Source of the DNA: an uncultured Bacilli bacterium | Lineage (GTDB): Bacteria > Bacillota_I > Bacilli_A > RF39 > UBA660 | Length of the DNA: 37,204 nt | Direction of reading: 5' to 3' | NCBI GenBank assembly: GCA_944363705.1 | Contig: CALVUY010000005.1 | Span: 1 to 37,204, forward strand | In this document: positions 29,576 to 30,983 of the stretch, in pieces | How positions within the stretch are numbered: position 1 is the stretch's first letter | Layout of the letters: the number at the start of each line of letters is the position of its first letter | Program-made: the position numbers and the translations under genes | The notes under the pieces: model-generated | Database searches by the model: none | What the model was told of the DNA's origin: nothing | Seen by the model: the letters and a program-made list of their open reading frames with translations, nothing else

Positions 29576-29593
29576 AATTTATATGAATTTTGT

Positions 29594-29680
29594 AAATTGA
29601 CCCTATTTTTTAGAGTCAATTTTTAATTTTCTCTAGGCGAATTTATAAAATTGACCCCTGTATTTAGAGTGAATTTTCAA
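29594..29680 (+). repeat. Two tandem hairpin repeats of about 54 bp
   Basis: AAATTGACCC and a later TTAGAGTSAATTTT recur with a 54-bp period. In copy 1, AAATTGAC (29594-29601) pairs with GTCAATTT (29615-29622) and a T-rich tail follows, so it can end transcription of the upstream gene. Copy 2 (29648-29680) has mismatches in the stem. This could be a duplicated terminator or the remnant of a small mobile repeat. Confidence 0.6.
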
Positions 29681-29737
29681 AATCCTCTTTTTGCATTACT
29701 TTTCTTCTTATGTTAGTGTACTCACTACATACATGTA

Positions 29738-29768: not shown

Positions 29769-30635
29769 ATGGAAAATAATGATAATGATAAATTTGTAAG
29801 CCTTTTAGCCGATAGTACATTTAAGTATATGTTTAAAGATTATAGAGAGTTTTTTAAAAAGGCAATTAAATCAACAATTAATGTCGATATAAGTGAATAT
29901 GAACTTTATAATAATGAGATAAATAGTGGAAATAAAGCTAGAGATTATAGACTAGATATACTACTAAAGAAAGACAATGATTTTATTATAATAGAAATGA
30001 ATAAAAATGCTGATAAAAGGACCCTATTAAAAGCCAGAAAGTATTTATATGCTGTTGCAGGAGGAGGACTAGTAGAAGGAGAAGACTTTAAAAAGATGCA
30101 TACTATTCTTATTAACTTTAATAATTCTAAATATAAAAATGATAAAGAGGCGATCAGTGTTGGATATGATTTAAGAAATGAAAAATATAATGATGTTATA
30201 GATGAAATAAAAATTTATGACATATATCTTGAAAGTCTTGAAAATGTACGTTATAATGGTAGTAACGAAAAAGAAACATATTTAGCAATGTTTAGAGCAG
30301 AGTCTTTTGAAGAGATGAGAAATATTGCTAATGGTAATAAGGAGGCTTTGAAAGTAGTGGAAGAATTAGAAAGGTTAAGTGAAAATGATGAGTTTAGAGT
30401 GCTTTATGATGCTGAAAAAATGAGAAGAAAAGAAATAAACTCGGCAAGACTTGATGGCTATGATGATGGTTATGGTAATGGCTACGAAATTGGGATTACT
30501 AAAGGAAAAGAAGAAGAGAAAATTGCTATTGCTAAAAATTTTCTTAAAAATGGAGTATCTCCTGACATAGTATCCGAAAGTACTGGTTTAAATGAAGATG
30601 AGATAAATAATTTACTAGATGAATTAAACAGCTAA
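29769..30635 (+). CDS. Rpn-type PD-(D/E)XK nuclease (PDDEXK_2 'transposase' family)
   Basis: A 288-residue protein of the family labelled Rpn recombination-promoting nuclease or PD-(D/E)XK nuclease family transposase. The N-terminal start (FVSLLADSTFKYMF) is typical. The nuclease core has Asp63 (RLDILLKKD) and Glu76 in IIIEMNK, where the usual ExQ or ExK position holds Asn78. The C-terminal part has the repeated-Gly spacer DGYDDGYGNGYEIGITKGKEEE and a helix-turn-helix-like end (IAKNFLKNGVSPDIVSESTG). An internal ribosome site aaggagg (30339-30345) precedes in-frame TTG codon 194 (30348) and GTG codon 197. In Escherichia coli, Rpn toxins carry such an intragenic start for a short antitoxin. 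The ribosome site of the full gene is gagaggt. No transposon ends are seen. Confidence 0.88.
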   Translation: MENNDNDKFVSLLADSTFKYMFKDYREFFKKAIKSTINVDISEYELYNNEINSGNKARDYRLDILLKKDNDFIIIEMNKNADKRTLLKARKYLYAVAGGGLVEGEDFKKMHTILINFNNSKYKNDKEAISVGYDLRNEKYNDVIDEIKIYDIYLESLENVRYNGSNEKETYLAMFRAESFEEMRNIANGNKEALKVVEELERLSENDEFRVLYDAEKMRRKEINSARLDGYDDGYGNGYEIGITKGKEEEKIAIAKNFLKNGVSPDIVSESTGLNEDEINNLLDELNS

Positions 30636-30934
30636 TGGTAATAAGGAGGCTTTGAAAGTAGTGGAAGAATTAGAAAGGTTAAGTGAAAATGATGAGTTTA
30701 GAGTCCTTTATGATGCTGAAAAAATGAGAAGAAAAGAGATAAACTCGGCAAGACTTGATGGCTATGATGATGGTTATGGCAATGGCTACGAAATTGGAAT
30801 TACTAAAGGAAAAGAAGAGGGAGCTAAGGCAGAAAAAATTGCTATTGCTAAAAATCTTCTTAAAAATGGTATATCTATTGATTTAGTATCAGAAAGTACT
30901 GGTTTAGGTGTAGAAGAATTAGAAGAGTTAAAGA
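30327..30934 (+). repeat. Tandem duplication of the Rpn C-terminal coding region
   Basis: The sequence from 30327 (GCTAATGGTAATAAGGAGGC) recurs at 30631, an offset of 304 bp. About the first 190 bases differ at only four positions; beyond that a 12-base insertion and many differences appear. The offset is not a multiple of three, so the second copy is out of frame with the full-length gene, whose stop TAA lies in the junction. Confidence 0.9.
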
Positions 30935-30945
30935 AAGAAGCTTAA
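30652..30945 (+). CDS. Free-standing Rpn C-terminal domain, putative RpnS-like antitoxin
   Basis: An open frame of up to 97 codons repeating residues 194-288 of the preceding nuclease. It lacks the nuclease core and holds only the helical, Gly-repeat and C-terminal helix-turn-helix-like parts. The start is uncertain: aaggagg (30643-30649) is 2 bp before TTG 30652 and 11 bp before the in-frame GTG 30661. The first 180 or so bases differ from copy 1 at four sites, all synonymous, which argues that this reading frame has been kept. It adds four residues (GAKA) and ends ELEELKKEA. A role as a separate antitoxin is inferred from Rpn biology; a dead duplication fragment is the alternative. Confidence 0.6.
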   Translation: MKVVEELERLSENDEFRVLYDAEKMRRKEINSARLDGYDDGYGNGYEIGITKGKEEGAKAEKIAIAKNLLKNGISIDLVSESTGLGVEELEELKKEA

Positions 30946-30959
30946 TAACTTCTTTCTTT
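30930..30959 (+). terminator. Hairpin after the Rpn duplicate
   Basis: AAAGAAAGAAG / CTTCTTTCTTT is a perfect 11-bp stem with an 8-base loop over the stop codon. The pyrimidine 3' arm partly replaces a U-run. Confidence 0.55.
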
Positions 30960-30983
30960 AATCCTGGTAAAAGAGGTGTTGAT

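Follow-up and report, generated by a model that had tools for sequence, protein, structure and literature searches.

An Rpn-type nuclease gene that is followed directly by a second copy of its own C-terminal domain raises the question of whether this copy serves the adjacent nuclease and, if not, where it came from. Free downstream RpnS genes are known for E. coli rpnE and rpnC, namely RpnES (ypaA) and RpnCS (Zhong et al. 2023, PMC10327210). A tree-based reading of those loci gave independent self-duplication with occasional fusion or loss (PMC10327210), and Zhong et al. left open both the origin of the separate rpnS copies and the cause of the fast variation in tail repeats (PMC10327210). The locus described here lies in a stretch of 37,204 nucleotides (the window), equivalent to contig C5 in the 1.46-Mb metagenome-assembled genome of a gut bacterium. 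Uncultured Bacilli, Candidatus Onthousia among them, make up its named relatives. Comparison with related loci leads us to consider it probable, though well short of certain, that the locus is a gene-within-gene toxin-antitoxin system of the Rpn type in which a former tail has been displaced and retained.

The nuclease gene and its internal start

The nuclease gene, rpn, lies between a gene for a small membrane protein and addB. Its C-terminal tail (T1), the free-standing tail that follows (T2) and the associated sites are as follows:

29769..30635, + strand: rpn, a PD-(D/E)XK nuclease, RpnL-like, 288 aa, including fused tail T1 (TIGR01784, active site, structure model)
30229..30257, + strand: promoter-like site TTGAAA-17-TATAAT within the gene, ahead of the internal start (11/12 match; conservation)
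30339..30345, + strand: internal Shine-Dalgarno AAGGAGG (codon-level conservation in relatives)
30357..30635, + strand: putative intragenic RpnS-like product of T1, 92 aa from GTG (start-codon conservation; 7th0 profile match)
30631..30635, + strand: junction GCTAA, in which the Ser-stop of T1 uses the letters of the Ala-Asn codons (GCT AA) at the tail border within the nuclease gene (sequence)
30643..30649, + strand: Shine-Dalgarno of T2, AAGGAGG, retained in most free tails (sequence)
30661..30945, + strand: free-standing tail T2, 94 aa from GTG 30661, or 97 aa from TTG 30652 (open frame; TIGR01784)
30820..30831, + strand: additional four-residue unit GAKA in T2 relative to T1 (alignment)
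30927..30962, + strand: hairpin over the T2 stop codon, candidate terminator ahead of addB (folding: 14-bp stem, -16.9 kcal/mol, z -2.35)

The rpn protein scored 54.5 bits against TIGR01784, above the curated cut-off of 52.1, with residues 15-281 of 288 aligned. Residues D63, E76 and N78 were invariant in 59 relatives, the asparagine occupying a position where Q or K is usual (an E-x-N variant). The predicted structure consists of a nuclease core, a 54-residue helix (207-260) and two short C-terminal helices, and a Foldseek search with this model returned weak matches to McrC-type nucleases, with McrC on top (E 2.2e-3); a Pfam search gave nothing useful for the locus. By its score, its PD-(D/E)XK active site and its predicted fold, the rpn product is assigned to the Rpn nuclease family. 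A profile built from the family alignment matched the structure of the short form of E. coli RpnA (RpnA-S; 7th0, E 1.6e-6). From this match, the helix at 207-260 and spacer differences in the long helix between free and fused tails that are multiples of four residues in 17/17 genus pairs, the tail is identified as an RpnS-type helical, putative dimerisation domain with four-residue repeats.

The internal signal and start are conserved at the level of individual codons. Glutamate within the signal is encoded by GAG in 55 of 59 relatives, against 26% overall in these AT-rich genomes; the lysine preceding it is AAG, against 27% overall; and the valine at the start position, where valine occurs, is always GTG (13.6% overall), with ATG/Met in other subfamilies. 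About 100 nt upstream lies the promoter-like site, whose -10 hexamer TATAAT is perfect in 53/59 relatives and whose -35 is matched at no fewer than five of six positions in 41/59. The site is retained even where the encoded amino acids differ among relatives, and the leucine codon at the -35 is CTT in 52 of 57 (25% overall). The 59 relatives are related to one another and the counts not independent; the contrast with the usual codons of the same genes is strong. Selection on the internal translation start of rpn is thus strongly supported by codon choice, and the promoter-like site, conserved across the genus, is placed to drive the short form. Both fit the internal starts and internal transcripts found in E. 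coli rpn genes (Zhong et al., PMC10327210). A first-pass annotation had proposed an Rpn nuclease with an internal start, and the TIGR01784 score together with the signal, NTG start and promoter-like site kept among the 59 relatives bears this out.

Several further observations concern rpn sequences and their surroundings. In the window, a 50-nt sequence upstream of rpn (29585-29688) occurs in tandem (76%) and also forms an inverted repeat. Elsewhere in the same genome, L021 (contig C52) is an Rpn remnant without most of the nuclease, followed by a diverged second tail-like ORF of 75 aa. A second rpn type, present as L017 (contig C16) and as L146 (G013, contig C3), has a nuclease frame that stops at the same place, YLENYGRNKI, after which the tail runs on in another frame, as a shared frameshift or a split gene. 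Contigs C29, C65, C84, C91, C93 and C102 of the window genome end within rpn genes or tails, as repeats would lead one to expect, and these breaks may make the arrays of this genome look smaller than they are. At L063 (G025, contig C5, 1921-2322), the second tail begins further upstream and takes in a second copy of the internal promoter-like region.

The free tail as a probable gene

The tail of rpn and the sequence downstream of it form a direct repeat (30313-30514 and 30617-30818) that is 95% identical at a spacing of 304, followed by a 100-nt stretch of 81% identity with a 12-nt length difference between the copies; this is no chance match. T2 matches TIGR01784 positions 196-273 (E 8.7e-10) and lies one base out of frame with rpn at the GCTAA junction, a type of junction that recurs at several loci. 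AAGGAGG stands 2 nt from the TTG and 11 nt from the GTG. Because the TTG is so close to the signal, the GTG (30357 in T1, 30661 in T2) is the likelier start; relatives carry ATG in its place. A scan for simple terminator patterns returned no site, although folding gives the 14-bp stem over the T2 stop codon. With an open copy, a signal of its own and a position directly downstream of rpn, T2 reads as a free downstream RpnS gene of the ypaA kind. Coordinates, open frames and repeat all agreed with the first-pass description of a nuclease gene with an internal aaggagg and a free copy offset by 304 bp, and its suggestion that the short form exists twice, within the gene and as an ORF of its own, is upheld by the internal start of T1 and the open frame of T2.

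Between the two copies of the repeat there are four synonymous differences (T1 positions 30401, 30434, 30476 and 30494) and no non-synonymous ones, which had been taken as a sign of selection on both copies. All four T2 states are those of the fused tail of genome G028, whose position before addB corresponds. The T2 head agrees with the G028 tail at 154/155 aligned positions and departs from T1 at three, the fourth site lying just beyond. Most simply, the four differences arose while the head belonged to a nuclease gene. Since they are common to a fused tail, they are uninformative on selection on the free copy, and purifying selection on T2 was rejected as a conclusion from these sites.

A free tail is present in 19 of the 58 fused loci with enough downstream sequence, all chosen by similarity to the window protein, and most free tails keep signal, start and frame. 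At L098, L101, L104 and the addB site of G010, a 1-nt deletion between signal and start is found together with a GTG-to-ATG change; as these are tolerated only by an independent start, the start appears to be used on its own. In E. coli, the free tails of 14 two-tail loci all read open. Five free tails are broken (G021 C3, G007 C3, G010 C60, G024 and G016), and that of L016 is short of 14 residues. Orthologous free tails gave synonymous to non-synonymous counts of 5:1 in one pair and 3:4 and 3:5 in the others. Purifying selection at the free orthologues of slot 2 (slots are defined below) was rejected as a candidate; the first count had looked strong, and a count on the translated part only was mixed.

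It is possible, but in our view rather unlikely, that free tails are inert recombination debris that persists until it decays or recombines. The five broken copies and the shortened L016 tail would be expected of debris, the evidence of purifying selection is weak and mixed, and the four synonymous differences go back to a fused tail. Debris would not be expected to keep frame, signal and start in most cases, to carry at three loci and the G010 addB site a start change that is tolerable only with an independent start, or to read open throughout the 14 E. coli two-tail loci. We conclude from these patterns that free tails are real small genes in several lineages and are decaying in others. Independent translation of the free copies is likely, and T2 is probably translated. 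The first-pass claim that both forms are translated thus retains the support of the signals and starts kept in most free tails, and of the ATG start peculiar to one group, and loses its selection argument. Stops or frameshifts in the duplicate, which that annotation had named as evidence against its proposal, occur in five relatives, most other free tails being intact.

Repeat register of free and fused tails

The indel between T1 and T2, overlooked in the first-pass annotation, is exactly one four-residue unit (GAKA), so that the helix spacer measures 26 residues in T1 and 30 in T2; the equal repeat number expected of a cognate antitoxin was not found. In E. coli, the four-residue repeat sets RpnL/RpnS specificity (PMC10327210), and one added repeat abolished inhibition in RpnC (PMC10327210), the one E. 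coli protein on which this repeat rule rests. Under the rule, T2, one unit longer than T1, would not be expected to work as an antitoxin for its neighbour, and it is probably not the cognate antitoxin of the adjacent nuclease. Among the 17 genus pairs, 14 disagree in register and 3 agree, compared with 24% equality among random fused pairs. At E. coli rpnE, 0 of 10 distinct free/fused combinations match, all differing by whole four-residue repeats. Across loci, register matching was no commoner than chance. Selection against matching registers was also rejected: 3/17 stands against 0.24 for random pairs, and the 0/10 of E. coli against a chance of about 0.09, an estimate from the observed rpnE values that is already low. 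The proposal that T2 is simply the separated antitoxin of this nuclease is therefore not supported, the tail being one unit longer and matching no commoner than chance.

It is accordingly improbable that a free tail acts as a dedicated extra antitoxin for the adjacent nuclease, raising the RpnS dose and holding the nuclease off. Such a role would account for the Shine-Dalgarno and start retained in most free tails, for the production of free RpnES in E. coli (PMC10327210) and for a locus in genome G033 at which both tails are intact despite stops in the nuclease. It is difficult to reconcile with registers that differ in most genus pairs and in every E. coli rpnE combination, given that an added repeat abolished RpnC inhibition, or with matching that is not maintained. 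In addition, the head of a free tail can come from another lineage than that of the fused one (L056, the third tail of L057, L062 and L077). An assembly artefact or strain mixture can be dismissed with near certainty: the metagenome assembly is fragmented and several rpn tails lie at contig ends, but the window copy is inside a contig that continues beyond the locus, and complete E. coli genomes, as well as other assemblies and slots, show the same junction and layout.

Probable tail displacement at orthologous slots

Loci of the genus were grouped into orthologous slots by their flanks (DISPLACEMENT). At the addB slot, one tail is present in G014, G007, G027, G008, G001 and others; two in the window genome, G021, G033, G029 and G004; and three in G030, whose second tail has the T1-type end of the window. 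The second tail is broken in G010, G024 and G016. Fused or free, the tail adjacent to addB in most cases has a KKEA, KKEV or KKEG end together with the hairpin, and inner tails end in ELNS or LLEDND. The usual end is KKEA then ATAACTGTTTC at slot 2, ENLTD or ENLTN at slot 3 and NKEA at slot 4. At these four slots, the site-specific end of the last tail is identical whether that tail is fused, in one-tail genomes, or free, in multi-tail genomes; exceptions to a slot's usual end include L076, L078, L091 and L102 (slot 2) and L083, L085 and L097 (slot 3), among others. In G007, the leader and end of the fused tail are those found on the free tail in G030 and G021, with 158/162 identity to G030 in the B part, which indicates exchange between free and fused tails. 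Apparent scars of a deleted last tail are present in G028 and G033, and the repeat block of T2 has the same length as that of the G028-type nuclease. Separately, the nuclease of the G033 locus (L058) contains two in-frame TAA stops. A family-level search found the tail in 25 of 78 genomes sampled and was not used for array counts, and tblastn of viral contigs returned no phage-borne relatives of the free tail.

The slot ends are most simply read as insertion between the nuclease and the resident tail. Here, at other slots of the genus and at E. coli rpnE, an extra tail, with signal, start, four-residue repeats and HTH-like end, lies at this point, and the resident tail with its site-specific end stands out of frame behind it as an RpnS-like gene of its own. 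The tail head, common to all copies, may provide the homology for tail insertion, exchange and loss. Translation of T2 would use its own AAGGAGG and GTG 30661 within the shared mRNA, and the product would inhibit the adjacent nuclease poorly. It would instead fit nucleases bearing the former tail, and could serve as raw material for tail switching. Displacement is suggested by the ends anchored to the site at the four genus slots and at E. coli rpnE; by the identity of the T2 head with the fused G028 tail, the three tails of G030, the G007 exchange and the apparent scars; and by the register mismatch taken with the repeat rule (PMC10327210) and the signal and start kept in most free tails. Against it count the slot genomes that lack the usual end, the broken free tails, the mixed selection counts and the three register matches. 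The direction of events is inferred and proven for no single event; one-tail loci could be collapsed arrays, and insertion and array collapse probably both happen.

The E. coli loci resemble those of the genus in having a nuclease, an internal tail start, four-residue helix repeats and a second tail directly downstream. At rpnE of K-12, ypaA starts at a copied AAAAGGAGAGATTAATG that overlaps the stop, and both this junction style and the register mismatch are shared with the window. One-tail strains mostly have a fused rpnE tail ending in SEADLAANNH; in two-tail strains, this end belongs to the free copy, and the fused tail ends in TDADIPNCH or similar. At rpnC, the spacer is longer in two-tail strains, and their free copy carries another repeat block. 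The anchored ends at rpnE suggest insertion ahead of the resident tail, unlike the published self-duplication, and many free tails of the genus do not derive from the adjacent nuclease's own tail. The loci described here differ from E. coli RpnL/RpnS in phylum, with little sequence similarity, and in having a GTG start, the E-x-N active-site variant and up to two free tails. A parallel exists in CDI loci, where new C-terminal modules are believed to displace earlier ones, which persist downstream and are available for reuse (review PMC9086364). Orphan toxin/immunity modules of CDI resemble displaced Rpn tails by analogy only, and no homology is claimed: they are tips of secreted toxins with separate immunity genes, the orphan toxins lacking a start codon, whereas the unit displaced here would be the antitoxin-like tail of an intracellular nuclease, with its own signal and start.

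A downstream RpnS copy has been published for E. coli; what is added here is the displacement rule, a register mismatch that is general, and an array of three tails. Searches of open-licence literature turned up no description of displaced or arrayed Rpn tails. We advance only tentatively, as less likely true than false, the wider proposal that Rpn loci across phyla evolve by tail displacement, with new tails of another repeat register entering ahead of the resident one and out-of-register RpnS proteins protecting against nucleases that bear the former tail and storing specificity cassettes. The slot comparison nonetheless offers a concrete, testable answer to the origin of rpnS copies, namely insertion ahead of a site-anchored resident tail, a pattern common to uncultured Bacilli and E. 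coli. On this basis, the majority of free RpnS copies, among them ypaA, are predicted not to neutralise the nuclease next to them, and a downstream antitoxin-like copy is not to be assumed to be the cognate antitoxin.
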